From positions 1-49,692 of the forward strand of contig NZ_JQKB01000038.1 in the NCBI RefSeq assembly GCF_000745835.1: a DNA stretch of 49,692 nt. Reading direction: 5' to 3'. The position numbers and the translations under genes are program-made. Of the stretch, positions 13,622-49,540 are shown in pieces; positions within the stretch are counted from its first letter, which is position 1, and each line of letters begins with the position of its first letter. The notes beneath the pieces were generated by a model. That model made no database searches, was not told the origin of the DNA, and worked only from the letters and a program-made list of their open reading frames with translations. This DNA comes from Belnapia moabensis DSM 16746. Lineage in GTDB: Bacteria > Pseudomonadota > Alphaproteobacteria > Acetobacterales > Acetobacteraceae.

Positions 13622-13640
13622 AGAAATGAGGGAGAACGAG

Positions 13641-28840: not shown

Positions 28841-28842
28841 AG

Positions 28843-29733: not shown

Positions 29734-31535
29734 ATGCTCTGCGATCGCGGCTGAGCGCAGTCGTCGCAGACTGGCGTGTGCAGGTGGCGCTGGTGCTGGC
29801 GCTGCTGCTGGCGGCGTCGCTGCTCTCCCCCGGCACCTTGCAGATCGCCAGCTTCGTGTTGGTAGCCGCAATCTTCGCCCAGAGCATCAACCTGCTCACC
29901 GGCCTCGCCGGACAGATCTCGCTCGGCCATGCTGGCTTCTTCGGCATTGGCGCCTATTGCACCGGCATCCTGGTGAAAACTCATGGGCTGGACGTCACGC
30001 TCGGTGTACCGGCGGCGGTGCTGCTGGCGGGATTGACTGGCTGGCTGCTGTCCTTTCCCGCAAACCGGGTGCGCGACGTCTACCTGGCGATGATGACGCT
30101 GGGCTTCGGCATGGTGTTCTTCGAAATAGTCCGAGAATGGAATGACTTGACTGGCGGTACCATGGGCCTGCCCGGCGTACCCTCAGCGGCGCTGCGCACG
30201 TTGACGATCTTGGGCGTCAAGGTTGATGGGCTTCGCTACTTCCAGCTTGTCTTGCTCATCACTGCCGGCGTTATCCTACTGGTGCGCAACCTGACGCAGT
30301 CGCGCATCGGCCGTGCCTTCTACGCCATCCAGGTCAGTGAGATCGCAGCTGGCAGCATTGGCATCCCGGCCGGCCGCACCAAGCAGCTGGCCTATGCGCT
30401 CTCGGGTGCGTTGGCGGGGCTGGCGGGGGCGCTCTACGCCCATCTGGTCGGCTATCTCGGCCCGGAGAGCTTCGCGCTGCCGCGCTCGATCGAGGTGCTG
30501 GTCATCGCCATCGTGGGCGGCCTCGGCTCCATTGCGGGCCAGGTGCTGAGTGCTGCGCTGTTCACCTTCTTGCCCGAACGGCTGCAAATTTTCGCCGAAT
30601 GGCAGTTCATCGCCTATGGGCTGATCCTCACCTTCTCCCTATTGGTGCTGCCGCGCGGCATCGGCGGTCTGCTATTCGACCCGCCGCGCTTTATCAAACC
30701 GCGCGCCCTGGCCCGTGCCGCCGGGCAGCGCGCCGATGCGACGGCGCTGCGCCCAGACGGTGACGGCGCCGCGCTGGAAGCCAAGGGCATCACCATGCGC
30801 TTTGGCGGATTGGTAGCGGTGGATGACGTCTCGCTGCGGCTGGAGCCAGGGCGGATCACCGCACTAGTCGGCCCCAACGGCTCGGGCAAGAGCACCTTCG
30901 TCAACGTCGTCACCGGCATCTACCGGCCGGCCGCAGGCCAGGTGCGCTTCGGGGGGCGCGACATCACCGGCCTGCCCGATCACCAGGTGGCCACGGCCGG
31001 CGTGGTACGCACCTTCCAGGACCCGCGCCTGGTGCCGCATTTCACAGTGCGGGAGAACCTGCTGCTCGGCGCGCACCGCCAGCTGCGCCATAGCGGCCTC
31101 GCCGCCACGCTGGCGTTGCCCAGCGCCATCGCTGAGGAAGCCGTGCAGCTGGCGCTTGTGGAGGCGGTGCTGGCGCTGTCGGACCTCACCGAGGTGGCGG
31201 ACCGGCCAATCGACACTCTGCCATATGGAACCCGCCGCATGGCCGAGGTGGGCCGTGCCCTGCTCGCCCGCCCACGCGTCATCCTGCTCGACGAACCCGC
31301 GGCGGGACTGTCCGAGACGGAGATGGACCGGCTCGCGCAGCTGATCCGCGACATGAAGGCGATGGGCCTCGCCATCCTGCTCATCGACCACCACATGGAT
31401 TTCCTGGCGGAGCTGGTGGACGAGGTAGTGGTACTGGACAGCGGCCGGATGATCTACCGCGGTGACATCACCGGCATGCGTGGCGATGCGCAGGTGATAG
31501 CCGCCTATCTCGGCGACGAGGCCGCCCATGCTTGA
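29730..31535 (+). CDS. Fused ABC permease and ATPase (LivM-LivG)
   Basis: This 601-residue protein joins a LivM permease (about residues 1-320; GLAGQISLGHAGFFGIGAY, VIAIVGGLGSIAGQVL) to a LivG ATPase (about 345-601). The ATPase has Walker A GPNGSGKST at about 381-389, Q-loop FQDPRL and Walker B VILLDEPAAGL at about 516-526. The switch His is in LLIDHHMDF. The ABC signature is unusual: the expected LSYGQ-type motif reads LPYGTRRM, with no Gln. The fusion fixes one permease:ATPase stoichiometry. It overlaps LivH upstream and LivF downstream. Confidence 0.92.
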   Translation: MNALRSRLSAVVADWRVQVALVLALLLAASLLSPGTLQIASFVLVAAIFAQSINLLTGLAGQISLGHAGFFGIGAYCTGILVKTHGLDVTLGVPAAVLLAGLTGWLLSFPANRVRDVYLAMMTLGFGMVFFEIVREWNDLTGGTMGLPGVPSAALRTLTILGVKVDGLRYFQLVLLITAGVILLVRNLTQSRIGRAFYAIQVSEIAAGSIGIPAGRTKQLAYALSGALAGLAGALYAHLVGYLGPESFALPRSIEVLVIAIVGGLGSIAGQVLSAALFTFLPERLQIFAEWQFIAYGLILTFSLLVLPRGIGGLLFDPPRFIKPRALARAAGQRADATALRPDGDGAALEAKGITMRFGGLVAVDDVSLRLEPGRITALVGPNGSGKSTFVNVVTGIYRPAAGQVRFGGRDITGLPDHQVATAGVVRTFQDPRLVPHFTVRENLLLGAHRQLRHSGLAATLALPSAIAEEAVQLALVEAVLALSDLTEVADRPIDTLPYGTRRMAEVGRALLARPRVILLDEPAAGLSETEMDRLAQLIRDMKAMGLAILLIDHHMDFLAELVDEVVVLDSGRMIYRGDITGMRGDAQVIAAYLGDEAAHA

Positions 31536-32238
31536 GCTGCGCGATCTCTCGGTGCACTACGGCGCAGTGCGGGCACTGGAAGGCGTCTCGCTCCAGGCCG
31601 CACCGGGTGGCATCACCGCCATCCTCGGCGCCAATGGCGCGGGCAAGTCGTCATTGATGCGGGCGGTCTCCGGCATCGCACCCGTGGTCGCCGGCCAGGT
31701 GCTGCTGGATGGCCAGGACATTACCGCCCTGCCGCCGCCGGCACGGGCGCGGCTCGGCGTGGCGCACGCCATGGAGGGCCGCCGGCTGTTCCGCCAGCTC
31801 ACAGTGGAGGATAACCTGAGGCTGGCCTGGAGCTTCGGCGCCCGCCGCGAGAAGCTGGCCGCATCCCTGGCCGAGGTCTATGCTCGCTTCCCCATCCTCG
31901 AGACCAAGGCGCGCACCGCCGCCGGGCTACTTTCGGGCGGGCAGCAGCAGATGCTGATCCTGTCCTGTACCACCATCCGCAACCCGCGCTTCCTGCTGCT
32001 GGATGAGCCTTCGCTCGGCCTAGCGCCGATTATCGTGCAGCAGATCTACGGCTTCATCACTGACTACGCCGCAAAGAGCGGCATCGTCGTCATCATCGCC
32101 GAGCAGATGGCGGCACTGGCGCTGAAGGTCTCGCGCCAGGGGATGGTGCTGCGGCGCGGCCGGGTGGTGCTGGCCGGCGCTGGCGAGGAGCTGCTACGCG
32201 GCCAGGACGGCACCACGCTGGCCGCCAGTTACCTGTAG
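31528..32238 (+). CDS. Branched-chain-type ABC transporter ATPase (LivF family)
   Basis: This 236-residue ATP-binding protein has Walker A GANGAGKSS at about 34-42, signature LLSGGQQQM at about 132-140, Walker B FLLLDEPSLGLAP at about 152 and a switch region IAEQMAAL, where the usual switch His is not evident. The canonical signature here contrasts with the altered one in the fused LivG domain, its expected dimer partner. It starts eight bases before the LivM-LivG stop and ends the operon. The next gene on the right is convergent. Confidence 0.93.
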   Translation: MLELRDLSVHYGAVRALEGVSLQAAPGGITAILGANGAGKSSLMRAVSGIAPVVAGQVLLDGQDITALPPPARARLGVAHAMEGRRLFRQLTVEDNLRLAWSFGARREKLAASLAEVYARFPILETKARTAAGLLSGGQQQMLILSCTTIRNPRFLLLDEPSLGLAPIIVQQIYGFITDYAAKSGIVVIIAEQMAALALKVSRQGMVLRRGRVVLAGAGEELLRGQDGTTLAASYL

Positions 32239-36249: not shown

Positions 36250-36780
36250 TCAGTCGCGTCCCGAACGGCCCGCCGATGAGGGCGCTGTGGGGTACCAGTA
36301 ATCAGGCTCGGGCCGCTGCCACCCGGGCTCGGAATGCCGCACCTCAATGGTGGTGCTCAGGCTGGCCTCCGTGCCGTAATAGACAAACTGGCTGCCACGA
36401 TAGTTTCCCTCCATAATGGCCTGCCAGCCACGGGCGGCGAACTCCGCCGTCACATCCGCCAGCGACCGGTCGCCATAATCGATCATGACGTGGTGCACGC
36501 CCTCACCATGGTCACGCAGAAACTCCCAATAAATCGATGGCCCATCGAGCGGCTGGATCAGCTCCCACATCATGCCCTTGGTCCAGGCAAGGGCGAGTTT
36601 CATGCTGTACGCCACCGCTACCCCCCGGACCTTGGTCTCGCTCAGCAGCGGCGGTGCATAGGTGTACACGCGCCACGGGCCGACCCCCAGCTTGTTGGCG
36701 TAGCTTCCGAGCGCAGTGTCCAGGTCGCGGACGACGATCCCGACTTGGATGATATTCTGGGCAAGCGGGGCCTCCTGCAT
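36250..36780 (-). CDS. VOC-superfamily (glyoxalase/epimerase-like) protein
   Basis: This 176-residue protein is of the vicinal oxygen chelate fold. It has the N-terminal strand NIIQVGIVVRDLDTALGSY, a middle segment with GEGVHHVMIDYGD, and a C-terminal strand with FVYYGTEASLSTTIEV. The first metal-binding position, often His before VGIVV, is Gln here. Gln is also a ligand in some glyoxalases, so metal binding may persist. AGGAGG precedes the ATG at 36780; the longer frame is less likely. It is the last gene of the ten-gene minus-strand run, 88 bases after the SBP gene. It could be an epimerase, lyase or extradiol-type enzyme on a pathway intermediate. Confidence 0.82.
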   Translation of the reverse strand: MQEAPLAQNIIQVGIVVRDLDTALGSYANKLGVGPWRVYTYAPPLLSETKVRGVAVAYSMKLALAWTKGMMWELIQPLDGPSIYWEFLRDHGEGVHHVMIDYGDRSLADVTAEFAARGWQAIMEGNYRGSQFVYYGTEASLSTTIEVRHSEPGWQRPEPDYWYPTAPSSAGRSGRD

Positions 36781-36868
36781 CGTGCCTCCTAGCGCTTTTC
36801 CACAGAAACCGGTCATGGGACCTGCTGGATGGTGCGGCGTCTCCTAGCGGCCCCGCTGGTCGACGGTC

Positions 36869-38116
36869 TCAAGTCCGTACCAGCGGACATCCTCCTTCGC
36901 TGATGGGACGGAAGCCATTCTCGGGCGTGAGGGTTTCGACCACCTTGAGCATATCCCATTCGTGCCGGCTTTCAGCCGGCTTCTTTGCCTCAAGGAGATA
37001 GACCGGGTGAAGCTTGCGCCCGTCCTCGCGGACGCGGCCTGGTCCGAAGCAGTCGTCATCGGTCGGCATGGCCTTCATGCGGGCAACCACTGCGGCCCCA
37101 TCCAGCTTCGCCTCCGCCACGCCCATATCCGCCACCACCTTGAGATAGTGCATAGTCGATGAGTAAATGCCGGCCGTCACCATGTTGGGATACAGCTTCG
37201 GGGTCTTCGGCTGCACCCTGGCCTGCCATGAGCGGGTCCGATCGTTCAGATCCCAATAATAGGTCGCAGCGATCTGCAGCCCCTGCGCTTCCTGCAGCCC
37301 GAGGGAGTGGACCGTCGTGTCGTAAGTCAGCAGGCCAACAATCTTCATGCGGCGGGCAATGCCGAATTCGCGGGCCTGCTTTACGCAGGTGATGAGGTCC
37401 GCGCCCGAATTGCAGAGCCCCAACACCTTGGCGCCCGATGACCCAGCCCGGAGTAGAAACGAGGAGAAATCCGTCGTCCCTGGGAATGGATGGAATACCG
37501 AACCCACAACGCGGCCTCCGCCACCCTGCACAACTGCGGTGGTGTCACGCGCGAGCTGATGGCCGAAAGCATAGTCAGCACCCAGGAAGAACCAGCTGTC
37601 GCCGCCCTGCCGCAGGACCGAGGAGCCCACGGACCGTGCCAGCATCGCGGTATCCCACACCCAATGGATGGTATTCGGACTGCATTGGGCGCCGGTCAGG
37701 TCGCTGGTTCCGGGACCCGAGGCCAAGAAGACCTTGTTCTTCTCACGTACGATCGTATTCACCGCAAGCGAGGTGGCGGAGGTGGAGACTTCCACCAGCG
37801 CGTCTAACCCATCTTGATCGATCCATCGTCGCGCAGTCGCCACCGCGACATCGGCCCGGTTCTGGTGGTCGGCGACAAGCACGTCCACATCCCAGCCACG
37901 GGCGGAGACATTGAAATCCTCCAGCGCCTGCCGCGCGCAGACCTCTGATGGCCGACTCAGATCGGCATAAGGTCCGGACAGGTCAGCGATGATGCCAAGC
38001 CGCAGACGCGGCCGGCCTGCCCCACTCACCTGGGCGCGTGCGGGTATGTTCGTTAGGGTACCGGCAGTGACCGCCGAACCCAACAGAGCCCGGCGAGTAT
38101 GGTGTTTGGCTACCAT
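36869..38116 (-). CDS. ABC transporter substrate-binding protein, branched-chain type (orphan)
   Basis: This 415-residue periplasmic binding protein has a signal peptide with HTRRALLGSAVTAG ending at ARA-Q. It then reads LRLGIIADLSGPYADLSRPS and carries CSPNTIHWVWDTAMLA, SWFFLGADYAFGHQ, TDFSSFLLRAGSS, MPTDDDCFGPGRVREDG and EGGCPLV. It is very similar to the SBP at 43011-44267 along its whole length, so the two arose by a recent duplication. The ATG at 38116 has a better-spaced GAGG than the ATG at 38122. It lies 55 bases downstream of the monooxygenase in the LacI-linked operon. Confidence 0.93.
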   Translation of the reverse strand: MVAKHHTRRALLGSAVTAGTLTNIPARAQVSGAGRPRLRLGIIADLSGPYADLSRPSEVCARQALEDFNVSARGWDVDVLVADHQNRADVAVATARRWIDQDGLDALVEVSTSATSLAVNTIVREKNKVFLASGPGTSDLTGAQCSPNTIHWVWDTAMLARSVGSSVLRQGGDSWFFLGADYAFGHQLARDTTAVVQGGGGRVVGSVFHPFPGTTDFSSFLLRAGSSGAKVLGLCNSGADLITCVKQAREFGIARRMKIVGLLTYDTTVHSLGLQEAQGLQIAATYYWDLNDRTRSWQARVQPKTPKLYPNMVTAGIYSSTMHYLKVVADMGVAEAKLDGAAVVARMKAMPTDDDCFGPGRVREDGRKLHPVYLLEAKKPAESRHEWDMLKVVETLTPENGFRPISEGGCPLVRT

Positions 38117-38171
38117 CGTCATCCCTCGAGCTTTCAGGCGCCTCTTGCGCAGGACGCATCAAAATGGAGGC

Positions 38172-39797
38172 TCAGTCACTCAGCGCAAAACCGTCGTAGT
38201 TCCTCGCCGCAACATTGGCGCAGATCTCGCGGTAGCGTGCCATGCCACCGGCGTACGGCATGAAGATCCGCGGCTTTCCTGGTACGTTCGCTCCGAGATA
38301 CCAAGAACTCGCCGCCTGCGGCAGCAAGGTCGCATTGGCGGCGTCATTGACCTGCTCAACCCATTTTTCTACGGCGTCGGTCTGCGCCTCAATACGTGCG
38401 AGTCCGCGCTTGCGCATGTGCGCAATGCAGTCAGTGATCCACTCAACATGCTGCTCGATGGCTACGGGCATGTTGCACAGCACCGAAGGGCTGCCCGGCC
38501 CGGTAATGGTGAAGAGGTTGGGAAAGCCCGCCACCTGCAAGCCGAGGTAGCTGCGCGGGCCGGCCTCCCAAGCCTTGGCCAGCGGCAGGCCACTGCGACC
38601 TTCGATGTTCAGCTTCAGCAACGGGCCGGTCATCGCATCGTAGCCGGTGGCAAAGACGATGATGTCGAGCGGATACTCCGCGTCGCGGGTGCGGAGTCCA
38701 GTCGGCGTGATCGCCTCGATTGGAGCCCGGCGGACATCGACCAGGGTGACGTTGTCGCGGTTGAAGGTGGCGAAATAGTCGGTGTCGATCGGCGGCCGCT
38801 TGGCGGCATAGGGATGGTCGATATCAGCCAGCAGCGCCGCGGTCACTGGGTCTTTCACGATGGAGCGGATCTTGTTCTTCAGGAACTCGGCCGCGGTGTC
38901 GTTCGCCGCCTTGTCCAGCAGTATATCGCGGAAGACGGCGCGGAACTGCAACCCGCCCTTGGCCCAGGCGGCTTCGTACAGCGCCTGGCGCTGCTCGGGC
39001 GTCACGTCCCAGGCCGAACGGTCCTCGATGAAGAAGGCTTGGCCATTTGTGTTGCTATGCATGATCCGACGGATCTCGGCATGGTTCTCCTTTACCCAGG
39101 CCTTGAATTCCGGCGTCAGCGGTGCGTTGTGAGCCGGCACGCTGTAATTGGCGGTGCGCTGGAATACGGTGAGGTGCGCTGCCGTTTCAGCAATGACCGG
39201 TGTCGCCTGGATGCCGGTGGAGCCGGTACCGATCAGGCCGACGCGCTTGCCGGTGAAATCTACGCCTTCATGCGGCCATTGTCCGGTGTGGTACCAATCG
39301 CCACCGAATTCCTCGAGGCCCGGAAACTTCGGCACATTGGCCGTGGAGAGGCAGCCAACGGCGGTGATCAGGAATTGCGCCGTCAGCGTCTCTCCCGCAT
39401 CGGTGGTCACCGACCAGCGATTCGCCGCCTCGTCGTAGCGGGCGCCGACCACGCGGGTGCTGAAGCGGATGTCCTTCCTCAGGTCGAATCGGTCGGCCAC
39501 ATGGTTCAGGTAGCGACGGATTTCCGCATGGTCCGGATAGCGCTCGGTCCATTCCCACTCCTCGAAGAGCTCCTTCGAAAATGTGTAGTTATAAGCATGG
39601 CTTTCGGAGTCGCAGCGGGCGCCGGGGTAGCGGTTCCAGTACCAGGTGCCACCCAAGCCATCGCCGGCTTCCAGCACCTGTACATTCAGCCCAAGCCGGT
39701 CACGCAGGCACAGCAGCTGGTACAGGCCAGAAAATCCGGCGCCTATGACGAGGGCGTCGTACTCGCGGGCGGCAGGAGCGGGGTTCACGTCGGGCAT
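38172..39797 (-). CDS. Baeyer-Villiger-type FAD monooxygenase
   Basis: This 541-residue monooxygenase has FAD motif GAGFSG at residues 19-24 and GGTWYWNRYPGARCD at about 48-62. The fingerprint FGGDWYHTGQWP, matching FxGxxxHxxxWP, is at about 166-177, and the NADPH motif GTGSTG follows at about 192. The late segment ITGPGSPSVLCNMPVAIEQH is typical of cyclohexanone-monooxygenase-like enzymes. GAGGAG precedes the ATG; the frame to 39908 is unsupported. It should turn a cyclic or linear ketone into a lactone or ester. It is flanked on both sides by SBP genes in the same operon. Confidence 0.92.
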   Translation of the reverse strand: MPDVNPAPAAREYDALVIGAGFSGLYQLLCLRDRLGLNVQVLEAGDGLGGTWYWNRYPGARCDSESHAYNYTFSKELFEEWEWTERYPDHAEIRRYLNHVADRFDLRKDIRFSTRVVGARYDEAANRWSVTTDAGETLTAQFLITAVGCLSTANVPKFPGLEEFGGDWYHTGQWPHEGVDFTGKRVGLIGTGSTGIQATPVIAETAAHLTVFQRTANYSVPAHNAPLTPEFKAWVKENHAEIRRIMHSNTNGQAFFIEDRSAWDVTPEQRQALYEAAWAKGGLQFRAVFRDILLDKAANDTAAEFLKNKIRSIVKDPVTAALLADIDHPYAAKRPPIDTDYFATFNRDNVTLVDVRRAPIEAITPTGLRTRDAEYPLDIIVFATGYDAMTGPLLKLNIEGRSGLPLAKAWEAGPRSYLGLQVAGFPNLFTITGPGSPSVLCNMPVAIEQHVEWITDCIAHMRKRGLARIEAQTDAVEKWVEQVNDAANATLLPQAASSWYLGANVPGKPRIFMPYAGGMARYREICANVAARNYDGFALSD

Positions 39798-39825
39798 GGC
39801 GGGACAGTTCTCCTCGGGACGATGA

Positions 39826-41058
39826 TCAAACCAGCGGACAGCCGCCTTCGGCCATGGGCCGGAAGGCCTCCTCGGCCGGGGTGGTGCCGACAAGTTTGTA
39901 GTAGTCAAAGGGTGCCTTGGATTCCTCGGGCTTTTTCACCTCGAACAGATAAGCCGGATGCAGCTTACGGCCGTCGGCGCGGATGCTGCCGGGGCCGAAG
40001 CAGTCGTCATCGGTCGGCATCGCCTTCATCCGCAGCACCGTCTCCAGCCCGCTGGCCTTGGCCCGGACCGCGTCCATGTCGGCGACCGCTTTCAGGTAAT
40101 GCAGCGTGGCGGCGTAGCCGCCGGCGTTCATTTGGTTGAGGCTGTTGCCGGCCAGCCTGCCACGCACCCGATCCATGAAGGCGCGGGTGCGATCGTTCAG
40201 GTCCCAGTAGAAGCTTTCCGCCAGCACGAGGCCCTGAGCGGTCTGCAGCCCCATGGTGTGGATGTCGGTTAGATAGGCCAGCATCAGCGCGACGCGGATG
40301 CCGCGCCGGCCCAGGCCGAATTCCTGCGCTTGCTTCACGCAGTTCACCGTGTCGTTGCCAGCATTCGCCAGAGCCAGGACCTTGGCGCCGCTGGCCTGGG
40401 CCTGCAGCATCTGCGAGGAGAAATCCGTCGTCTGCGGGAAAGGATAGCGCACCGCACCCAGCACACGGCCGCCAGCCTGCCGAACGAACTGTGTGGCGTC
40501 ACGTTCGATTTGGTGCCCAAACGCGTAATCAGCGGTGATGAAGAACCAGCTGTCGCCGCCATTCCGCACCATGGCTTGGCTGGTAGACTTGGCGAGCATG
40601 TAGGTGTCGTAGGTCCATTGCACCGTGTTAGGCGAGCACTGCGCCCCAGTGAGGGCGGCGGTCGAGGCACCGGATGCCAGGAAGACTTTGTTCTTCTCTC
40701 GCGCCACACTGCTCACGGCCAGACCAACGGCGGAGTTGTTTACATCGACAATGGCGTCCACGCCACGCCGATCAAACCATTCCCGTGCGGTGTTAACGCC
40801 CACATCTGGCTTGTTCTGGTGGTCGGCCTGGAGGACCTCGACGCGCAGTTCTGGTCGCAGCAGACGCATCTCCTCCACCGCCTGTTGCACGCAGGCGAGC
40901 GTGGTAGGGCCCGACCAGTCGCGGTAAGGTCCTGAGAAATCCGAGAGAACTCCGAGCCGGATCACCGCCGATGCCTGGGCACGGCTGTGCGTCACCAGCG
41001 ACGTGGAGAGGCCAGCCATGACGGCCACAATGGCACGGCGTGTCGTCGAGGGGACCAT
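39826..41058 (-). CDS. ABC transporter substrate-binding protein, branched-chain type (orphan)
   Basis: This 410-residue periplasmic binding protein has a signal peptide with STTRRAIVAVMAG ending at SRA-Q. It then reads VIRLGVLSDFSGPYRDWSGPT and shows CSPNTVQWTYDTYMLA, SWFFITADYAFGHQ, TDFSSQMLQAQAS, MPTDDDCFGPGSIRADG and EGGCPLV. It belongs to the same subfamily as its neighbours but to another branch than the near-duplicates at 36869 and 43011. It lies between the Bug receptor and the monooxygenase, 28 bases before the latter. No permease is encoded nearby. Confidence 0.93.
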   Translation of the reverse strand: MVPSTTRRAIVAVMAGLSTSLVTHSRAQASAVIRLGVLSDFSGPYRDWSGPTTLACVQQAVEEMRLLRPELRVEVLQADHQNKPDVGVNTAREWFDRRGVDAIVDVNNSAVGLAVSSVAREKNKVFLASGASTAALTGAQCSPNTVQWTYDTYMLAKSTSQAMVRNGGDSWFFITADYAFGHQIERDATQFVRQAGGRVLGAVRYPFPQTTDFSSQMLQAQASGAKVLALANAGNDTVNCVKQAQEFGLGRRGIRVALMLAYLTDIHTMGLQTAQGLVLAESFYWDLNDRTRAFMDRVRGRLAGNSLNQMNAGGYAATLHYLKAVADMDAVRAKASGLETVLRMKAMPTDDDCFGPGSIRADGRKLHPAYLFEVKKPEESKAPFDYYKLVGTTPAEEAFRPMAEGGCPLV

Positions 41059-41118
41059 TTGTGCTGCCTCCCGGTGTCAGGCAATGGCAGCCGCCCGTTT
41101 CCGGACGGCCGGGTGGGG

Positions 41119-42105
41119 TCAATCGGCTCGGATATTCTTCACCCGCACGATTTCGCCGTAGACACGGTAGTCGTGCATGATGCGGGAGGTGAAATGCTCC
41201 GGCGTATCCGCCGCCGTGACCCACCCAATACCCTGCAAGCGCTCACGCAGCTGCGGGCTCTGTTGTGCCCGGCGATTGGCGTCGGCGAGGCGCTCGATCA
41301 CCGCTGGCGGCGTCCCCCGCGGCACCAGCAAGCCAAACCAGTTCGGATAGACGAAGTCGCCGAAGCCGGACTCCACCATCGTCGGCACGTCAGGAAGAAT
41401 GGATGACCGCTGCGCCGACAGTACCGCAATGCCTTTGAGTCGCCCGTCGCGCACAGTCTGCTCGTACATCGAAAGCGCATCAATGATAAGATGGGTGGCC
41501 CCAGCCAGCATGTCCTGGCTCGCGGGGCCGGCGCCGCGATAATGCACCGCCTCGATCTCGATGCCGGTCGCACTCTTCAACAACTCCATCACGACATGGG
41601 TGATGCCGCCCGAGCCTGTGCTGGCATAGCTGAACTTGCCAGGATTCGCCTTTAGCAAAGCAATCAACTCGGCCAGGGTGGTCACGCCGAGCTTCGGATG
41701 TGCAACCAATAGTAGATCGCCGGTGATGGCGGTGGCGACTGGCACCAGATCCTTGAGCGGGTCGACCGGCATGGTTGTGTAGGTATGCGGGTTGATGGCG
41801 ACCTGCCCGACATTGACCAGCGTCAGGGTATGGCTGTCGCTCGAGCGAGCGACGAAATCCATGGCAAGATTGCCATTCGCGCCGGGCCGATTGTCAACCA
41901 CAACGGGAACGCCAAGTATTTCGGCCATGCCCGGCGCTAGCATGCGGGATAGCACGTCGGTCGGTCCGCCCGGCGCGAAGCCGACCATCATCCGGATTGG
42001 CCGGTTTGGCCAGGCTGGTTGCGCCAAGGCGGGCGCCGCGAGCGCAACGCCGGCCGCAGCGCCGGCCAGCAGCACGCGTCGCCGTGCGATCACATGGTCA
42101 TACAT
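41119..42105 (-). CDS. Bug-family (TTT) extracytoplasmic solute receptor
   Basis: This 328-residue Bug protein has a signal peptide with ARRRVLLAGAAAG (twin-arginine-like), cleaved after ALA. The family opening WPNRPIRMMVGFAPGGPTD and the motif VVVDNRPGANGNLAMDFVA follow. It is the third Bug receptor of the window, again without TctA/TctB. It sits inside the LacI-linked operon between the SDR and an ABC SBP gene. It therefore probably recognises a related acid, or senses it for a regulator (inference). Confidence 0.9.
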   Translation of the reverse strand: MYDHVIARRRVLLAGAAAGVALAAPALAQPAWPNRPIRMMVGFAPGGPTDVLSRMLAPGMAEILGVPVVVDNRPGANGNLAMDFVARSSDSHTLTLVNVGQVAINPHTYTTMPVDPLKDLVPVATAITGDLLLVAHPKLGVTTLAELIALLKANPGKFSYASTGSGGITHVVMELLKSATGIEIEAVHYRGAGPASQDMLAGATHLIIDALSMYEQTVRDGRLKGIAVLSAQRSSILPDVPTMVESGFGDFVYPNWFGLLVPRGTPPAVIERLADANRRAQQSPQLRERLQGIGWVTAADTPEHFTSRIMHDYRVYGEIVRVKNIRAD

Positions 42106-42183
42106 GATCGATTATTTACCCCCCTGTGAGGGCCGCCCTCTGTGAGCAGCCTCCGCAACGCATGTCCTTGGCTGCGCCGGATG

Positions 42184-42984
42184 CTATCCGGCGGCAACGG
42201 TGCGCAAAGCGCTCGGACTGGCGCCACGCCCACCATCAATGAGGTACTGCCCGCCGGTGATGCTGCCGGCGAGCTCGGAGCTGAGGAACAGCACCAGGTT
42301 TGCTATCTCCTCGGGCGTGGAGTAGCGGCCGATGGGAATCGTGGACTGGTACCGTTCTCGCACGCTGTTGCTTCCCTCGATGCTGGTCTGCGCCTCAAGC
42401 GAATGGATCATTCGCGTGTCCGTCGGTCCAGGACACACCGCATTCACCCGGATGCCGTTGCGACCGTATTCACTGGCCGCGGTTCGGGTCAGTCCGATCA
42501 CGCCATGCTTCGAGGCGACGTAGCCGGAAAGGCCTGGTGACCCCGCAACCCCGGCCGTGGAGGCGGTGTTCACGATGGCGCCGCCCTGCTGCCGGAGCAT
42601 GACTGGAATTACGTGCCGAAGGCCAAGGAAGACACCCTTCAGGTTGACCGCGATGACTGCGTCGAAGACATCCTCCTCATAATCGCCGGTCAGCGCGATC
42701 TTGCCCTCGATGCCGGCGTTGTTGAAGAAGCAATCGATGGCGCCATACGCATCTAGCGTCGCCTTCACATAACCCTGGACATCGGTGGATTTGATGACGT
42801 CGGCCTGCACGAAGCAGGCCTCGCCCCCGGCTGCACGCACGAGCCGTGCGGTCTCCTCGCCCCCGGCTGCATCACGGTCGACCACCGCCACACGTGCACC
42901 GCCCTGCGCGAAACCCAGGGAGGCAGCCCGTCCTATGCCGCCGGCCCCGCCGGTCACCAGTGCTACCTTGCCGCTGAAATCCAT
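42184..42984 (-). CDS. Short-chain dehydrogenase/reductase (SDR)
   Basis: This classical SDR has the cofactor motif TGGAGGIGRA near the N-terminus, the acidic residue in VAVVDRDAAG that favours NAD, NNAGIEG, the catalytic Ser in NTASTAG and the YxxxK pair in YVASKHG. The C-terminal end GGQYLIDGG is typical. Starts at 42990 and 42984 are both possible after AGGAGGA; I chose 42984 for spacing, giving 266 residues. It probably oxidises a secondary alcohol to a ketone for the monooxygenases of the same operon. It lies 26 bases after the SBP gene. Confidence 0.92.
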   Translation of the reverse strand: MDFSGKVALVTGGAGGIGRAASLGFAQGGARVAVVDRDAAGGEETARLVRAAGGEACFVQADVIKSTDVQGYVKATLDAYGAIDCFFNNAGIEGKIALTGDYEEDVFDAVIAVNLKGVFLGLRHVIPVMLRQQGGAIVNTASTAGVAGSPGLSGYVASKHGVIGLTRTAASEYGRNGIRVNAVCPGPTDTRMIHSLEAQTSIEGSNSVRERYQSTIPIGRYSTPEEIANLVLFLSSELAGSITGGQYLIDGGRGASPSALRTVAAG

Positions 42985-43010
42985 GGGCATTCTCCTCCTA
43001 CTTATTTTTG

Positions 43011-44267
43011 TCATCCGCGCACCAGCGGGCAGCCACCTTCGTTCAGCGGACGGAAAGCGTCCTCCGGCGAGACTGTAGCGACGGTCTTCAGCAGGTCCCA
43101 GGAATGCTTGCTCTCGACCGGCTTCTTCGCTTCCAGGATGTAGACCGGATGCATCTTGCGGCCATCTTCACGTATGGTGCCCATGCCAAAGCAGTCATCA
43201 TCGGTCGGCATTGACTTCATACGCGCAATAGTCGCCCGGCCGTCCCGCTTCGCCTCCGCGATGCCCATGTCTGCAGCGGTCTTGAGGTAATGCGTCACGG
43301 CGGAGTAGATGCCAGCAGTGCCCATGTTGGGGTACAATGTGGGCGTCTTGGGCTGCACGCGCGCTTGCCAAGCACGTGTCCGGTCATTCAGGTCCCAGTA
43401 GTAGGTAGCGGCGATCTGCATGCCTTGCGCGGTTTCCAGCCCGAGCGAGTGAATAACGGTATCGTAGGTGATCATGCCCACGATCCTCATGCTGCGATTC
43501 ACGCCGAACTCGCGTGCCTGCTTCACGGTGTTAATGAGGTCCGCGCCCGAATTGCAGAGGCTCAGGACCTTGGCACGTGAAGATTGGGCGCGCAGCAGAA
43601 AGGCCGAGAAGTCCGAAGTGCCCGGGAACGGATGGAACACACTGCCGGCGATTTTGCCGCCGCGAGCCTGCACCACCGCCGTGGTGTCCCGCACCATCTG
43701 GTGCCCGAAGGCGTAGTCGGCGCCGAGGAAGAACCAACTGTCGCCGCCTTGCGCCAGCACTGTCGAGCCCAGCGACCGCGCGAGCATCGCGGTGTCCCAG
43801 ACCCAATGGATTGTGTTCGGGCTGCAGGATGCGCCGGTCAGCTCGCTGGTTCCTGGCTCGGTCGCCAGGAAGACCTTGTTCTTCTCACGTGCTAACCCGT
43901 TAACCGCGAGGGCTGTTGCCGAAGTTGAAACGTCAACCAGTGCGTCGACGCCTTCCTGATCAAACCAGCGGCGCGCCGTGGCGGCGGCGATATCTGTCTT
44001 GTTCTGGTGGTCGGCGACCAAGATATCGACGTCCCACCCACGCCCCGAAACGCCGAAATCCTCCAAGGCCTGACGCGCGCAGGCCTCCGCAGGACGGCTC
44101 AGATCCGCATAGGGGCCGGAGAGGTCAGTGATGATGCCGAGGCGCAGCTTCGGCTTCGCCGCACCATCCGATTGCGCCCGCGTGGGACGTCCTGGCAGGA
44201 CCGCCGCCGCACCTGCGAGCGCAACCGTGCCGAGCAGCGCCCGGCGCGATGTGCTCCTGAATTCCAT
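43011..44267 (-). CDS. ABC transporter substrate-binding protein, branched-chain type (orphan)
   Basis: This 418-residue periplasmic binding protein has a clear twin-arginine-like motif, TSRRALLGTVALAG, with cleavage after TRA. It then reads LRLGIITDLSGPYADLSRPA and contains CSPNTIHWVWDTAMLA, SWFFLGADYAFGHQ, TDFSAFLLRAQSS, MPTDDDCFGMGTIREDG and EGGCPLV. It is a near-duplicate of the SBP at 36869-38116. I use the ATG at 44267, which begins the signal peptide; the frame to 44333 overlaps the region after the monooxygenase stop. It lies between the large monooxygenase and the SDR in the LacI-linked operon. Confidence 0.93.
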   Translation of the reverse strand: MEFRSTSRRALLGTVALAGAAAVLPGRPTRAQSDGAAKPKLRLGIITDLSGPYADLSRPAEACARQALEDFGVSGRGWDVDILVADHQNKTDIAAATARRWFDQEGVDALVDVSTSATALAVNGLAREKNKVFLATEPGTSELTGASCSPNTIHWVWDTAMLARSLGSTVLAQGGDSWFFLGADYAFGHQMVRDTTAVVQARGGKIAGSVFHPFPGTSDFSAFLLRAQSSRAKVLSLCNSGADLINTVKQAREFGVNRSMRIVGMITYDTVIHSLGLETAQGMQIAATYYWDLNDRTRAWQARVQPKTPTLYPNMGTAGIYSAVTHYLKTAADMGIAEAKRDGRATIARMKSMPTDDDCFGMGTIREDGRKMHPVYILEAKKPVESKHSWDLLKTVATVSPEDAFRPLNEGGCPLVRG

Positions 44268-44295
44268 TGCTTCAGTCCTGTCACTCGGGGTCATT

Positions 44296-46305
44296 TCAAC
44301 TGACAGGCAGCCTGTCGGCCGAAATGACCGCATCTGCTCTCTGTCCCGGCATCTCAGGCTTCTGGCCTGGCTTTGCCACTAGGAAATCCTCAGGCACGAA
44401 ATGCCTCATCATCCCCCAGTAGTCGAGCAGCCGCCAGGGCGAGGTGACCGTGATGCGGTTGCGGTCGTTCTTGTACCAGCTTGTCACGCCAGGATGCGCC
44501 CAGACCATGCTCTGGGCCTTCTCGTCGAGACGATGGTTGTATTGGTCATGGACGTCCTGCCGCACTTCCATGGTCGTGTAGCCTCGCTCGATCATTTCGC
44601 GTAGCGCCTGAACGATGTACCGGACCTGGCATTCCGTGTGAAAGATGATCGACCCGCCATGCGCCAGGTTGGTATTTGGACCATAGATGAGAAAAAGATT
44701 CGGATAGTGCGGCACCGTGACGCCCAGATAGCCACGCGGGTCGTCGTCGCCCCAGTCGTCGCGGATTGTATGGCCGTCGCGCCCGCGGATATCGAGCGGC
44801 CACAACATGCGGGAAGCCTGGAAGCCGGTGGCGAGAATGATGACGTCCGCTGGATGAACAGTGCCATCCTTCATCACGATGGACTCGGCCGTGACATGGG
44901 AGATCGGATCGGTTTCCGGCGCGACGTTCTCGCGCTTGAGCATCCGGTACCAATAGTTGTCCCGAAGCATGCGTTTGCCATAGGGCGGGTATGACGGAAT
45001 GACCTTGGCCAGCAGTTCCTCATCACCGCCGAGCTCGCCGCGCACATAGTCCACGATCAGCTCGCGCATCTTATGGTTTGCTTCGTTTAGGGAAACCGCC
45101 GAGGACGTCCAGGACGGGTCGACATGCAGCGAGGCGTGGAAGCCGTCCGAGCTCGCCCAGAACAGCTGGAACCGAAGCCAGTTCGAGAAGTATGGGATAT
45201 GTTCAAGTGCCCAGCGGTTGCTGTTGCTCACAGCGCGATGGTAGTTCGGGTTGTTCATCGCCCAGTGCGGTGTGCGCTGGAATATCCGCAGATGCGCCAC
45301 ATCTGAGGCGATTGATGGCCCGGCCTGCATAGCGCTGGCGCCGGTGCCGATCATGGCAACCCGCTTGCCCTTAAGATCGACGGTGCGGTCCCAACGCGCG
45401 GTATGGAATAACGGTCCGCTGAAGTTGTCGAGCCCGGTAATTTTTGGGATCGAGGCCCGATTCAACTGGCCGACCGCACTGATGACCGCATTGCACGCGG
45501 CACTCTCCTCGCGCCCCTCGGCGTCACGCCAGGTAAGCTGCCATCTGTCGGTTTTCTCGTCAAAGATGGCGCTCGTGGCCTCGGCCCCAAAGCGGATATG
45601 CGGGCGAAGATCGTAGGTGCGCGTCACGTCCTCGATATAGGCAAGAATTTCGTCGCGCCGGGAGAAATGCTGCGTCCAGCGGTTGTTAACGTGGAAAGAG
45701 TAGGAATAGAAGTGATTTGGTGTATCTACTGCGCAGCCGGGATACTCGTTCTCGAGCCAGGTGCCGCCGACACTAGCGTTCTTCTCGAACACCTCAAATC
45801 GAATGCCGAGCTGCTTCAGGCGGATCGCCGCGCAGAGGCCGCCAAAGCCGGCGCCGATGATAATCACCTTGAAGTCCCAGGGCGGCAGCTTCGCCGGGTC
45901 GTTGTGCCAACGTACGGCGCGGGTGTCCTCCTCGCCGAAGCGCATCTCCTCGAGTAGCAGCGGGATGTATTCATCCGGCACCGGTTGGCCGACGCCGGCA
46001 CTCATCATGCGTTGCAGCACATCGGCCGGCGGCTGCGGTGGTGCAATCTGCTTACTCGTCGCGTAATCCTGCAGGGTGGCGACCAAACGGTCACGGACCT
46101 TCTGCTTCAGCGGTTCGGGAACAGACTGGAGGAAGCTCCAGGCGCCGTGGATGTACGGGGCCACTTCCTCAAGAATATCGAGGTCGCCGGTGAGCTGGAC
46201 GAGCACCATCAGCATCGGCGCGATATCGGCTTCAGCGAGGGCGGCCTTGAGCGCGGCCTCATCGTGTACCGCTTCGCGCACGGCAAGCTGGAAGTCCTGT
46301 GCCAT
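44296..46305 (-). CDS. Baeyer-Villiger monooxygenase with N-terminal extension (4-hydroxyacetophenone monooxygenase-like)
   Basis: This 669-residue monooxygenase has a 140-residue N-terminal helical extension before the FAD motif GAGFGG at 151-156, as in 4-hydroxyacetophenone monooxygenase (HapE-type). GGTWLENEYPGCAVD follows at about 180-194. The fingerprint FSGPLFHTARWD lies at 295-306 with W305 followed by D instead of P, and the NADPH motif GTGASA is at about 320-325. Such enzymes convert aryl ketones and some aliphatic or cyclic ketones to esters. It lies 48 bases after an SDR gene and two genes after an esterase, which could supply the ketone and open the ester. Confidence 0.9.
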   Translation of the reverse strand: MAQDFQLAVREAVHDEAALKAALAEADIAPMLMVLVQLTGDLDILEEVAPYIHGAWSFLQSVPEPLKQKVRDRLVATLQDYATSKQIAPPQPPADVLQRMMSAGVGQPVPDEYIPLLLEEMRFGEEDTRAVRWHNDPAKLPPWDFKVIIIGAGFGGLCAAIRLKQLGIRFEVFEKNASVGGTWLENEYPGCAVDTPNHFYSYSFHVNNRWTQHFSRRDEILAYIEDVTRTYDLRPHIRFGAEATSAIFDEKTDRWQLTWRDAEGREESAACNAVISAVGQLNRASIPKITGLDNFSGPLFHTARWDRTVDLKGKRVAMIGTGASAMQAGPSIASDVAHLRIFQRTPHWAMNNPNYHRAVSNSNRWALEHIPYFSNWLRFQLFWASSDGFHASLHVDPSWTSSAVSLNEANHKMRELIVDYVRGELGGDEELLAKVIPSYPPYGKRMLRDNYWYRMLKRENVAPETDPISHVTAESIVMKDGTVHPADVIILATGFQASRMLWPLDIRGRDGHTIRDDWGDDDPRGYLGVTVPHYPNLFLIYGPNTNLAHGGSIIFHTECQVRYIVQALREMIERGYTTMEVRQDVHDQYNHRLDEKAQSMVWAHPGVTSWYKNDRNRITVTSPWRLLDYWGMMRHFVPEDFLVAKPGQKPEMPGQRADAVISADRLPVS

Positions 46306-46352
46306 GTCGACAAGTCCTTTGACTGCGGCGCCTGATCGGGCGCCATTCCGAC

Positions 46353-47120
46353 TCAGCCTGTGGTGTAGCCACCATCAACGGTCAGTGTGGTTCCGGTGAC
46401 GAAGCCCGAACGGTCCGAGCACAGCCACACCACGGCTTCCGCTATGTCGTCGGCGGTCCCCAAGCGGCGCATCGGCACCGTGGCCAGGATTTGGTCGCCA
46501 CGGCGCGCCATCGCTTCGGCGACCATCGGCGTCTCAATGTAACCTGGGCAAACCGCGTTCACGCGGACGCCGGTGGCAGCGTGGTCGATGGCCGCAGCCC
46601 TGGTCAGGCCGATCACGCCATGCTTCGCGGCGACATAGGCGTTGGATCCGGGCAGGCCAACCAGGCCGGCGATGGAACTGGTGTTGACGATGACACCACC
46701 TCCCTGTCCCTCCATCGCCGCCAGCTCATGCTTCATGCAGAGCCAAACGCCAGTCAGGTTCACTGCCAGCATGCGATCCCAGGCCTGCTGGGAGATGTCC
46801 CCGACGCGCTGACCGCCGGCGCCGACATGGACGGCCGCGATCCCGGCATTGTTGTAGGCGCAATCAAGCCGACCATAGGTCGTGACCACCGCCGCGACCA
46901 TGGCCGTCACTTCATCGGGCTTGGTCACATCGGCGACGACCGCCTGTGCCTCACCGCCTGCTGCGCGGATCAGCTCGACGGTCTCGTCGGCGGCCGGACC
47001 TGAGAGGTCCGCGACGGTGATGAAAGCGCCCTCGCGCGCCATAACGATGGATGTCGCGCGTCCGATCCCAGAACCGCCGCCGGTGACCAGCGCCGATTTG
47101 CCCTCGAGGAGGCGGGTCAT
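46353..47120 (-). CDS. Short-chain dehydrogenase/reductase (SDR)
   Basis: This 255-residue classical SDR has TGGGSGIGRA at about 13-22, Asp in VADLSGPAAD at the cofactor-selecting position, NNAGIAA, the catalytic Ser in NTSSIAG and YVAAKHG with Tyr and Lys. The C-terminal end is GTTLTVDGGYTTG. Its start overlaps the esterase stop by four bases (ATGA), so the two are translated together. It is the second gene of the LacI-linked operon. Conversion between a secondary alcohol and a ketone is the inferred step before the monooxygenase. Confidence 0.92.
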   Translation of the reverse strand: MTRLLEGKSALVTGGGSGIGRATSIVMAREGAFITVADLSGPAADETVELIRAAGGEAQAVVADVTKPDEVTAMVAAVVTTYGRLDCAYNNAGIAAVHVGAGGQRVGDISQQAWDRMLAVNLTGVWLCMKHELAAMEGQGGGVIVNTSSIAGLVGLPGSNAYVAAKHGVIGLTRAAAIDHAATGVRVNAVCPGYIETPMVAEAMARRGDQILATVPMRRLGTADDIAEAVVWLCSDRSGFVTGTTLTVDGGYTTG

Positions 47121-48082
47121 GGCGCCGCTCCGGCAGCAGTCCGCCAGGCATCGCGGAGCACGGCCGCAATGAAGGCCAGAATGCCGTCCGTCGCGCCGAT
47201 GACCTTGCCCATAGTTAGGATTCCATGGACTTGATCGCTCAGATGCAGTGTGACGACTCGGACGCCATCACGTTCCAACCGCCAGGCGTATTGCCGCGCT
47301 TCGTCGCAAAGGGGGTCGTGGCCGCAAGTCAGCACCAGCGCGGGGGGCGCCTCGTGAAGGTTAGGTGCCCGCAGCGGCGATGCGCGCCAATCCGTCCGTT
47401 GCGCCACGTCTGGCAAATAGTGGTCGACGAAGTACCGCATCGTCTTCGCGGTGACCGGCACGCCTTCCGTAATTCGCTCGTAGCTCTCCGCGCTCATGGT
47501 GAGATCGACCACGGGATACAACAGCGCCTGGAACATGCTAGGTGGCACGGTACCGTCGCGCCCCATCAGGGCGAGCACCGCGGCTAGATTGCCTCCGGCG
47601 CTGTCGCCTGCCACTGCAATTTGCGCTGCATCGATGTGCAATGCACCTGCACTGCCGGCGACCCAGGCGAGGGCCGCCATGCAATCCTCGATCGCGGCGG
47701 GGAAGGGGTGTTCGGGTGCCAGGCGGTAATCCACGGCGACGACGCAGCACCGGGCATCGTTAGCCAGTCGGCGGCACACCCCGTCATGGGAGTCTATGTC
47801 GCCGAAGACCCAGCCGCCGCCATGCAGATAGAGCAGGCAGGGCAGGACATCGGCCGCCGATGTATCCACGCCGCGGTAGAGCCGCAAAGGAACTTCCCCC
47901 GCCTTGCCCATTATCGTCACATCGCGCAGCTCGGCGACTTCGACCGGAGCTGGCTGCAAAAGGGCGCGGCCCGCCGCGTAAGCGCGCCGCGCCTCCAATG
48001 GGGAGAGCACCTCGTAGGGCGGCCGCCCCGATTTCCGGATCAAGGTCAGCAGAGCTTGGGTATCGGGATGAACAGCCGGCAT
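47117..48082 (-). CDS. HSL-family alpha/beta hydrolase (esterase/lactonase)
   Basis: This 321-residue hydrolase has HGGG at residues 87-90, GDSAGG at 159-164 (nucleophile Ser161), an acidic residue in the GHDPLCDEA segment and His in DQVHGIL. The ATG at 48082 is preceded by AGAGGA; the frame to 48166 is unsupported. It has no signal peptide. It is the first gene of the minus-strand run and overlaps the SDR start, directly downstream of the two LacI-type operators. It probably hydrolyses the ester or lactone formed by the monooxygenases encoded downstream. Confidence 0.88.
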   Translation of the reverse strand: MPAVHPDTQALLTLIRKSGRPPYEVLSPLEARRAYAAGRALLQPAPVEVAELRDVTIMGKAGEVPLRLYRGVDTSAADVLPCLLYLHGGGWVFGDIDSHDGVCRRLANDARCCVVAVDYRLAPEHPFPAAIEDCMAALAWVAGSAGALHIDAAQIAVAGDSAGGNLAAVLALMGRDGTVPPSMFQALLYPVVDLTMSAESYERITEGVPVTAKTMRYFVDHYLPDVAQRTDWRASPLRAPNLHEAPPALVLTCGHDPLCDEARQYAWRLERDGVRVVTLHLSDQVHGILTMGKVIGATDGILAFIAAVLRDAWRTAAGAAP

Positions 48083-48436
48083 TGGCGTCCTCTTGGAAAG
48101 AACGAGATTTTCGCTCGACGAAAGCGACAGAGGCCCGAAATGGATGATGCCCGCATTCAACGGCAACGTTGCCCGGGTATGGGTCGCCTAAGTGAGCGGC
48201 CGGTCTATCCGTGATGGAAAGGTTCGTTGTGGATCTGCTTGCATCGACGCTTCCTCGGGCTCTTTGGCCCATTGCTCAATGTCAGCGGCTGGATACTGCC
48301 CCCGATCTGGTCGCAGTGGTAGCGCTAACGGCACAAGGTTAGCGCTAACAAGGAAGGCTGCGCAACCCTTACCTGGCAGCTGGGGCGGCGGACCGGGTGA
48401 CTGTGGTAAACCAGGCTGGTCATCAGGCAGGGCAGA
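48083..48436. other. Divergent control region of the esterase operon and the LacI-family gene
   Basis: This 354-base gap has no gene. It contains the twin LacI-type operators at 48318-48349, which lie about 236 bases before the esterase and about 88 bases before the regulator. No clear -10/-35 pair was found for either direction. Confidence 0.6.
48318..48349. promoter_or_regulatory. Twin LacI-family operators
   Basis: GTTAGCGCTAAC at 48338-48349 is a perfect 12-base palindrome with the central CG typical of LacI/GalR operators. A second copy with one change, GGTAGCGCTAAC, is at 48318-48329. Their centres are 20 bases apart, about two helical turns, so two dimers could bind side by side on one DNA face. 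They lie between the LacI-family gene and the divergent ten-gene run and probably control one or both. Confidence 0.75.
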
Positions 48437-49540
48437 ATGAATTCTATGCTGAGACAACGAAGGCGCAGGAAGCCTCAGAAAGGAGGGATCGAGGATGCTG
48501 TGGCATCCAAGCCAAACGGTGTGCCTGCGTTGCGTATGGAGGATGTCGCGCGCCTTGCCGGCGTCTCGGTCATGACGGTGTCTCGCGCGCTCCGCACTCC
48601 TCCAGCGGTCGCCGCATCCACCCTTGCCAAGGTCCGTGCTGCATTAGAGGAAACGGGGTACCTGCCCAATCTGGTGGCGAGTGGGCTGGCTTCTTCCCGC
48701 ACTCAGGTCGTCGCCGCGGTCATTCCGCTAATCAGCCAGCCTTTCGCGCCGACGCTGCAGAGCATGTCTGATGTCCTGCGCCGGGCGTCGTATCAGCTCG
48801 TGCTCGGCGTCAGCCACTACGACCCGTTGCAGGAAGAAGCCTTGGTGCGCGCCTTCCTGTCCCGGCGTGTGGATGGGATCGCGCTGTTCGCAGGCGGGCA
48901 CACGCCCCAGACGATCGCAATGCTGGAACAGGCCGGCGTTCCACTCGTCGAGATGTGGGCTGACTCCGCGACTGAATTCATTGTTGATGCGGTATCTGTG
49001 CCGCAGCGGCGAGGCGCGCAGGACGTTGTCCGCCATCTCCTTGCGCGCGGACGCCAGCGCATCGGCTTCATCGGTGGATCGACCCGGCACAATATCCGGG
49101 CACAGGCTCGGCTGGGCGGCTATCTGGATGGGTTGGCCGAAGCCGGGCTGCCACATGACCCCGCAGCCTGCGAAGAGGCCACGCACTTTTTAATGGAGGG
49201 CGGAGCGGCTGCCCTGGCACGTCTATTGGAGCGGCGGCCACAACTCGACGCCATCTGTGTCGCCAGCGACATCCTCGCTGCCGGTGTGGTTTTCGAAGCG
49301 CACCGGCGTGGCCTCTCTGTTCCGCGCGATCTTGCAGTCGCTGGTTTCGATGACGCTGAGATCGCCCGCTCGATGTATCCCGCACTCACAACCATCGACA
49401 TGAGGGCGGAGGACATGGGAAGGCGGGCCGCCGAGATGCTGCTCGAGCGCACCAGCCAGAGCAGCCGCGTCGACCTTGTCGCCATGCCATCGCGCATGCA
49501 TGACCTCGGCTATACGCTTATCGTGCGCGAAAGTACCTGA
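48437..49540 (+). CDS. LacI-family transcriptional regulator
   Basis: This 367-residue LacI/GalR regulator has its helix-turn-helix at about residues 35-53 (MEDVARLAGVSVMTVSRAL). The hinge helix region includes LPNLVASGLASSRTQ, and the periplasmic-binding-protein-like effector domain continues to the end (VAGFDDAEIARSMYPALTTI). A 30-residue basic extension precedes the DNA-binding domain, so the true start may be later than 48437, for example at the ATG codon 48536 that begins MEDVA. The effector is unknown; the control of a ketone-catabolic operon by this family would be atypical, since most members sense sugars or nucleotides. Confidence 0.92.
   Translation: MNSMLRQRRRRKPQKGGIEDAVASKPNGVPALRMEDVARLAGVSVMTVSRALRTPPAVAASTLAKVRAALEETGYLPNLVASGLASSRTQVVAAVIPLISQPFAPTLQSMSDVLRRASYQLVLGVSHYDPLQEEALVRAFLSRRVDGIALFAGGHTPQTIAMLEQAGVPLVEMWADSATEFIVDAVSVPQRRGAQDVVRHLLARGRQRIGFIGGSTRHNIRAQARLGGYLDGLAEAGLPHDPAACEEATHFLMEGGAAALARLLERRPQLDAICVASDILAAGVVFEAHRRGLSVPRDLAVAGFDDAEIARSMYPALTTIDMRAEDMGRRAAEMLLERTSQSSRVDLVAMPSRMHDLGYTLIVREST

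Follow-up and report, generated by a model that had tools for sequence, protein, structure and literature searches.

A Baeyer-Villiger monooxygenase operon with interleaved periplasmic receptors in Belnapia moabensis, probably switched by a LacI-family regulator through a conserved operator pair

What switches a gene set that looks built for ketone breakdown, and how would its periplasmic receptors pass on their ligands, when the set faces a LacI-family regulator and holds no membrane permease of its own? The question is raised by contig NZ_JQKB01000038.1 of Belnapia moabensis DSM 16746 (positions 1–49,692; this entire 49,692-nt stretch is referred to below as the window), in which ten minus-strand genes occupy positions 36250–48082 after start correction and a LacI-family gene diverges from them on the other strand. 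Mechanically called open reading frames (ORFs) begin too early for the esterase (EST), one periplasmic binding protein (SBP_c) and one Baeyer-Villiger monooxygenase (BVMO578), and their starts were moved to the likely ATGs at 48082, 44267 and 39797 (for EST, an alternative TTG at 48166 is less likely). A preliminary description of this DNA had listed an esterase, two short-chain dehydrogenases (SDRs), two Baeyer-Villiger-type monooxygenases, three ABC binding proteins, one Bug receptor and one VOC protein, separated by gaps below 90 bases; Pfam matches bear out the families (the monooxygenases as flavin monooxygenases, the three binding proteins as PF13458, the Bug receptor as TctC), and the nine corrected junctions (−4, 47, 28, −4, 78, 60, 28, 49 and 52 nt) bear out the spacing. 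The features are as follows.

48437–49540, plus strand: LacI-family regulator, divergent GntR relative (predicted; PF00356, E 1.4e-16, residues 34–78; PF13377, residues 198–367)
48338–48349, unstranded: putative operator 2, GTTAGCGCTAAC, centre 20 bp from that of operator 1; counterpart in all four loci
48318–48329, unstranded: putative operator 1, GGTAGCGCTAAC; counterpart in all four loci
47117–48082, minus strand: EST, hormone-sensitive-lipase-family esterase, 321 aa from ATG 48082 (PF07859, E 9e-71)
46353–47120, minus strand: SDR2, short-chain dehydrogenase (PF13561, E 2e-65; YxxxK motif)
44296–46305, minus strand: BVMO669, long type I Baeyer-Villiger monooxygenase (FMO-like match from residue 146; fingerprint FSGPLFHTARWD)
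43011–44267, minus strand: SBP_c, PF13458 periplasmic binding protein (E 9e-97)
42184–43014, minus strand: SDR1, short-chain dehydrogenase (PF13561, E 2e-60; YxxxK motif)
41119–42105, minus strand: Bug/TctC periplasmic receptor (PF03401, E 5e-62)
39826–41058, minus strand: SBP_b, PF13458 periplasmic binding protein (E 1e-93)
38172–39797, minus strand: BVMO578, 541 aa from ATG 39797, predicted phenylacetone/steroid monooxygenase type (PDB 1w4x; fingerprint FGGDWYHTGQWP)
36869–38122, minus strand: SBP_a, PF13458 periplasmic binding protein (E 1.5e-97)
36250–36816, minus strand: VOC/glyoxalase-superfamily protein (PF13669, E 5e-11)

One part of the answer concerns the regulator and its operators. 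That the divergent LacI gene and two palindromes 20 bases apart form one switch, as had been proposed, is well supported by comparison of loci, the unit being conserved in 4/4 orthologous loci (window included). A search for conserved synteny in related genomes found the LacI gene and operator pair kept in Belnapia rosea, Roseicella sp. and Plastoroseomonas hellenica (regulators 98, 96 and 74% identical, respectively), with varying gene content behind them. The regulator combines a LacI helix-turn-helix with a periplasmic-binding-protein-like sensor domain, and in the alignment of the four orthologues a basic N-terminal arm precedes the helix-turn-helix, with M4, R6, Q7 and R9–R11 invariant. 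Both putative operators, which are mirror images of each other, lie in the 354-nt intergenic region between lacI and the EST start. Written in window orientation, with N standing for each base that separates the 12-mers, the pair is TGGTAGCGCTAAC-N8-GTTAGCGCTAACA in the window and, save for one change in operator 2, in B. rosea, TGATAGCGCTAAC-N8-GTTAGCGCTATCA in Roseicella and TGATAGCGCTAAC-N12-GTTAGCGCTATCA in P. hellenica, giving the consensus TG[GA]TAGCGCTAAC-spacer-GTTAGCG[CT]TA[AT]CA. The window intergenic region as a whole gave no blastn match to that of P. hellenica, where the operators were found as words.

Scanning the window with at most one mismatch yielded 2 matches against a mean of 0.02 expected, and none of 100 shuffles contained two sites. 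The 6.73-Mb genome of B. moabensis has a single exact copy of the 12-mer; the relaxed form, GNTAGCGCTANC, occurs three times, two of these being the present pair. Since a reversed control pattern is equally frequent (likewise three), the operator word alone proves nothing, and it is place and conservation that carry the weight. The sole other relaxed match in the genome, GGTAGCGCTACC at contig C195:308–319 (L135), precedes a 126-aa ORF that is MarR-like by eye. We looked for the core TAGCGCTA in 41 stretches that contain a LacI gene (one, G048, included because it has the word): it stands between the LacI gene and its divergent neighbour in 9/9 stretches holding one of the four orthologues, and among the other 32 (29 distinct loci) it lies within 300 bp of the gene in G058 and G048 and ~2 kb away in G150. 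The four loci, with two such core sites, thus show an even palindrome with central CG near the regulator gene, which is the operator rule for the LacI family given in an excerpt of a family survey (PMC4052901). A literature search for the operator word TTAGCGCTAA found, among titles and opening lines of abstracts, no link to LacI regulators.

Combining this switch with the gene content, we consider it rather probable that the run is a horizontally acquired catabolic operon under a GntR-type LacI repressor acting through two operators, with receptors that use a nearby Liv permease. The repressor would bind the two palindromes between the divergent genes and shut off the ten-gene operon, probably together with its own gene, until a pathway-made inducer or a pathway substrate lifts repression. 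The SDRs would then oxidise secondary alcohols to ketones, the two monooxygenases would convert the ketones by oxygen insertion into esters or lactones, and the esterase would hydrolyse these to acids and alcohols, while the PF13458 receptors would most likely pass their ligands to the Liv permease, whose genes lie 4 kb downstream. Gene content, the shared core and operator pair, the patchy distribution and the damage in relatives are observations, whereas repression, the inducer, the substrates of the enzymes, use of a common permease and a single transcript are what we infer. As the closest named relative of the regulator is the gluconate repressor, a hydroxy acid or lactone from the pathway may act as inducer. 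An extended form of this proposal, rather doubtful as a whole, would have a gluconate-type repressor and its operator word recruited to sense a non-sugar Baeyer-Villiger product, two dimers cooperating via the N-terminal arm, and interchangeable receptors, through which several ligands would be sampled, serving one permease.

Several observations weigh against the proposed operon. It is damaged in two of the three relatives; the operator centres, 20 bp apart in the window, B. rosea and Roseicella, are 24 bp apart in P. hellenica; operator 2 of B. rosea carries its base change; and a sigma-70-like promoter was sought in the intergenic region and none was found. In the window the operators precede the EST start by 235 nt and lacI by 87 nt, so that direct repression of the ten genes is less evident than in P. 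hellenica, where the pair is 68 nt from the esterase and 47 nt from lacI. Finally, SBP_a–SBP_d are only 21–22% identical to the Liv-linked receptor SBP_e, which makes their sharing of that permease less certain.

The variable gene content nevertheless helps to define what the operon is for. In P. hellenica the LacI gene stands opposite EST (72%), SDR2 (78%), SDR1 (81%) and BVMO578 (75 and 80% in two pieces), and the 15 kb covered beyond BVMO578 held no match to any window gene. As only these four genes follow the operator pair there, esterase-SDR-SDR-BVMO is the core, to which the receptors, the second monooxygenase and the VOC gene are extras, either added here or lost elsewhere. In the window these extras are interleaved, with BVMO669 and SBP_c between SDR2 and SDR1, the Bug gene and SBP_b between SDR1 and BVMO578, and SBP_a and the VOC gene after BVMO578. 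B. rosea has all ten genes in the same order, two of them damaged (BVMO669 has lost ~1.6 kb internally and the VOC gene is frame-broken); in Roseicella, nothing matches EST or the VOC gene, and only short stretches of SDR2, BVMO669 and SBP_a are left. The idea of a sealed ten-gene module therefore did not survive, all ten genes being unbroken, among the four loci, in the window only. Gene loss in P. hellenica and gene gain in Belnapia both remain readings. In a further genome (G012), SBP_c (85%) directly precedes SDR1 (82%, one internal stop); as the best LacI match there is 42%, this pair is not confined to the operon.

The alcohol-ketone-ester-acid route that had been suggested is strengthened by the P. 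hellenica locus, the minimal form of which is exactly esterase-SDR-SDR-BVMO, whereas cyclic or aryl ketones as its substrates are a guess. Both monooxygenases carry the Baeyer-Villiger fingerprint FxGxxxHxxxW[P/D] flanked by two Rossmann GxGxx[GA] motifs (residues 19, 164 and 190 in BVMO578; 151, 295 and 320 in BVMO669; both motifs in their commonly known form). By its fit to solved structures (1w4x, E 7e-194 over residues 11–539; 4ap1, E 8e-190), BVMO578 is predicted to be of the phenylacetone/steroid monooxygenase type. BVMO669 aligns with solved Baeyer-Villiger enzymes only from about residue 134 onward; it has an N-terminal extension of ~140 aa, a feature of 4-hydroxyacetophenone monooxygenase, and may be like that enzyme in architecture. 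Long relatives occur in G031, G022, G021 and G009 (69, 66, 56 and 54%). EST shows HGGG at residue 87 and GDSAGG at residue 159, scores just under the cut-off of the LipP1 model (348.3 vs. 350 bits) and has Est8 as nearest solved structure (4ypv, E 4e-70). These matches leave a real, if lesser, chance that the substrate is a larger natural product (terpenoid, steroid or plant ester) rather than a simple cyclic or aryl ketone: BVMO578 resembles phenylacetone and steroid monooxygenases to about the same degree, and its top NCBIfam match is pentalenolactone D synthase, albeit far under the cut-off (278 vs. 1100 bits). However, Pfam and NCBIfam scans assigned no operon gene to a steroid- or terpene-specific family, and the four-gene core is generic.

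The position of the operators bears on a second alternative, in which the palindromes serve lacI autoregulation only and the run has its own promoter (within 48083–48310) under other control. The short distance to lacI in the window favours it, but in P. hellenica, with an intergenic region of ~150 nt, the pair should affect both promoters, and we regard restriction to autoregulation as unlikely.

The affinity of the regulator suggests a further possibility. Its best NCBIfam match is the GntR model NF052440 (263.7 bits, below the curated cut-off of 400), by which it is a predicted divergent relative of the gluconate repressor GntR. The exact 12-mer is present in 3/200 family genomes (own, G058 and G048), as compared with 30 for the reversed control word, and in 3/3 it lies within 300 bp of a LacI-family gene: 258 bp past the 3′ end of one in G058, and 42 bp upstream of one in G048, where it separates gntK (gluconokinase, 186 bits vs. 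a cut-off of 113.75) from GntR (454.4 vs. 400). An excerpt of a study of Pseudomonas plecoglossicida reports GntR footprints on AGCGCT-core sites (PMC12195362). The regulator might accordingly still sense gluconate or another sugar acid, the operon being switched by that cue and not by its own substrate; yet the score falls short of the GntR cut-off, the operon has no evident sugar gene, and with no second exact 12-mer in its own genome no shared regulon is seen, which makes such a cue improbable. Least credible of all is a run of several transcription units pointing one way by chance: gaps of 28–78 nt could hold promoters, and gene order and content vary between lineages, but stops and starts overlap by 4 nt at two junctions, the five minus-strand terminator-like sites all lie outside the gaps, and B. 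rosea keeps the full order despite its two damaged genes. An Rfam scan of the window gave no match.

As to the origin of the favoured GntR-type operon, its distribution among relatives is patchy. When contigs were scanned with the alignment of the four regulators, 13 loci were confirmed, the 3 orthologues and others at ≤44% identity, although the scan used two short peptide patterns only and could miss distant orthologues. In 200 family genomes, the own regulator and the same three again stand apart, all others listed being ≤44%. No LacI orthologue was found in 6 other congeneric genomes checked, in 4 other genomes of the Roseicella genus, in 2 others of the P. hellenica genus or in G012 (one genome, G007, is only 75% complete). 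DNA identity to the window genome in the rpoB region is 93.6% for B. rosea, 88.5% for Roseicella (over 2,623 bp) and 88.1% for P. hellenica (over 2,014 bp). Where most of a gene's length survives, the operon genes are 95.0–98.3% identical in B. rosea; the Roseicella values are 95.6% for BVMO578, 96.6% for SBP_b, 96.7% for the Bug gene, 94.7% for SDR1, 93.7% for lacI and 98.1 and 92.6% for two stretches of SBP_c, with an intergenic remnant at 84%. Because operon DNA in Roseicella is more alike than the rpoB region, these values point to horizontal transfer, most clearly there, while the P. hellenica link (operon genes ~73–80%) reads as an older relationship. Low GC content at third codon positions was discarded as proof of transfer: the operon mean is 0.757 against 0.86–0.88 in four other stretches, but the rpoB stretch (2 ORFs) also gives 0.757. 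Operon DNA matched 56 plasmid records, none over 80% of the query (best 12%), and the regulator matches 4,283 plasmid records, all below 60% identity.

The earlier statement that no transporter membrane subunit is present holds within the ten-gene run and fails in the neighbourhood, where LivH, a LivM-LivG fusion and LivF occupy 28843–32238.

27638–32238, plus strand: candidate partner transporter outside the operon, comprising SBP_e, LivH, the LivM-LivG fusion and LivF (Pfam)

These genes lie ~4 kb from the operon on the opposite strand, and their relatives in G012, a genome of another genus (LivH 81, LivM-LivG 76, LivF 69 and SBP_e 72%) adjoin a BVMO578-family gene (82%). We therefore dismissed a missing permease as a real gap; the permease for the operon receptors is probably encoded by these Liv genes. 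SBP_a and SBP_c are 75% identical, and the remaining pairs among SBP_a–SBP_d 52–58% (identity matrix). Receptors without a permease of their own are common in this genome: beside 36 PF02653 permease domains it has 42 PF13458 matches (41 above the cut-off) and at least 150 TctC genes (from 167 candidates, of which 150 were scored); on contig C3 (8340–15082), for instance, four tandem PF13458 receptors are directly followed by one pair of PF02653 domains. With so many TctC genes, and 3 on this contig vs. 1.1 expected, the Bug gene was set aside as a sign of exceptional receptor load. PF13458 clustering is exceptional (7 of the 42 on this contig vs. 0.31 expected; Poisson P ~4e-8, for a contig chosen after it had been seen).

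The rest of the window (1–36000) is also catabolic-looking, with an AMP-binding CoA ligase, a thiolase C-terminal-domain protein, an ATP-grasp/succinyl-CoA-ligase-like protein, an IclR regulator, an enoyl-CoA hydratase, an iron alcohol dehydrogenase, further binding proteins and two transposase genes. It contains two more flavin monooxygenases, one with the Baeyer-Villiger fingerprint (13464–15266) and one without it (23429–25222), an amidohydrolase (PF07969) apparently split over two ORFs into N- and C-terminal parts (11920–13621) and, at 26867–27559, directly ahead of the Liv genes, a direct repeat of 300 nt (79%, spacing 393) within an ORF with two carboxymuconolactone decarboxylase stretches.

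If the proposed mechanism is true, this locus would plainly show a repressor of the sugar-acid type put in charge of a ketone/ester pathway. Its operator pair is delimited sharply enough to be tested at once, and the switch would be a possible biosensor for Baeyer-Villiger products. The locus would also offer a tractable example of orphan periplasmic receptors among catabolic genes, the genome having many more receptors than permeases to match.

For a set of this kind, regulation by a LacI-family protein is unusual, as had been supposed. In an excerpt of the LacI-family survey, 176 of the 182 groups with assigned pathways concern carbohydrate metabolism (PMC4052901). BVMO578-family matches occur in 124/299 genomes; of 23 other such loci examined (the top 20 by score outside the operon lineage, plus three plasmid loci), none has a LacI-family gene within 5 kb at E 1e-10, some contigs being short enough for misses. 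LysR genes lie within 5 kb of 7/23 (4/20 without the three plasmid loci, which supplied the LysR queries), and PF13458 or Bug receptors within 5 kb of 13/23. Titles and opening lines of abstracts retrieved in a literature search mention no LacI control of a BVMO operon. Among 16 shorter family LacI loci (38–44% identity, ≤1.5 kb on each side), an SDR or Bug gene is a neighbour in 9; LacI genes beside such genes thus recur, and these sets may serve sugar acids. An SDR-Bug-LacI cluster (LacI 41% identical) recurs in the genus itself (G000:C97, G002:C53 and G005:C1; L066, L067 and L068), two of the three with a site two mismatches from the 12-mer before the SDR.

Among known arrangements, the closest are plasmid BVMO-Liv-SDR clusters of Roseomonas marmotae, Methylobacterium currus and Pararhizobium qamdonense, the monooxygenase of which belongs to the same family as BVMO578 (72, 72.5 and 63%) and, in 2/3, has an alpha/beta hydrolase beside it (58 and 53% to EST). 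Their order is BVMO-(esterase in 2/3)-SBP-LivHMGF-SDR; the Liv permease lies within the cluster in the same direction, whereas in the window it is 4 kb away on the other strand, the divergent regulator is LysR instead of LacI, and no second BVMO is present in the stretch. Since the Liv proteins are only ~28–41% and the SDRs ~30–33% like those of the window, we regard these as analogous sets and not as the same operon. The 4-hydroxyacetophenone (hap) and cyclohexanol (chn) clusters follow a like dehydrogenase/BVMO/esterase logic; to our knowledge their regulators belong to other families, and we know of no interleaved periplasmic receptors in them. With the gluconate repressor GntR and its gntK operator the window shares the operator word GTTAGCGCTAAC and the best NCBIfam match, and it differs by a score under the GntR cut-off, an oxygenase/esterase operon, two mirror operators and a basic N-terminal arm. 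Many receptors are likewise found in Rhodoplanes, for which an excerpted account describes an orphan expansion of the TctC family (PMC5994714), while in the window four receptors are interleaved with catabolic enzymes. Overall, the BVMO operon with extra receptors is real, conserved and probably LacI-switched, a variation on a known theme.

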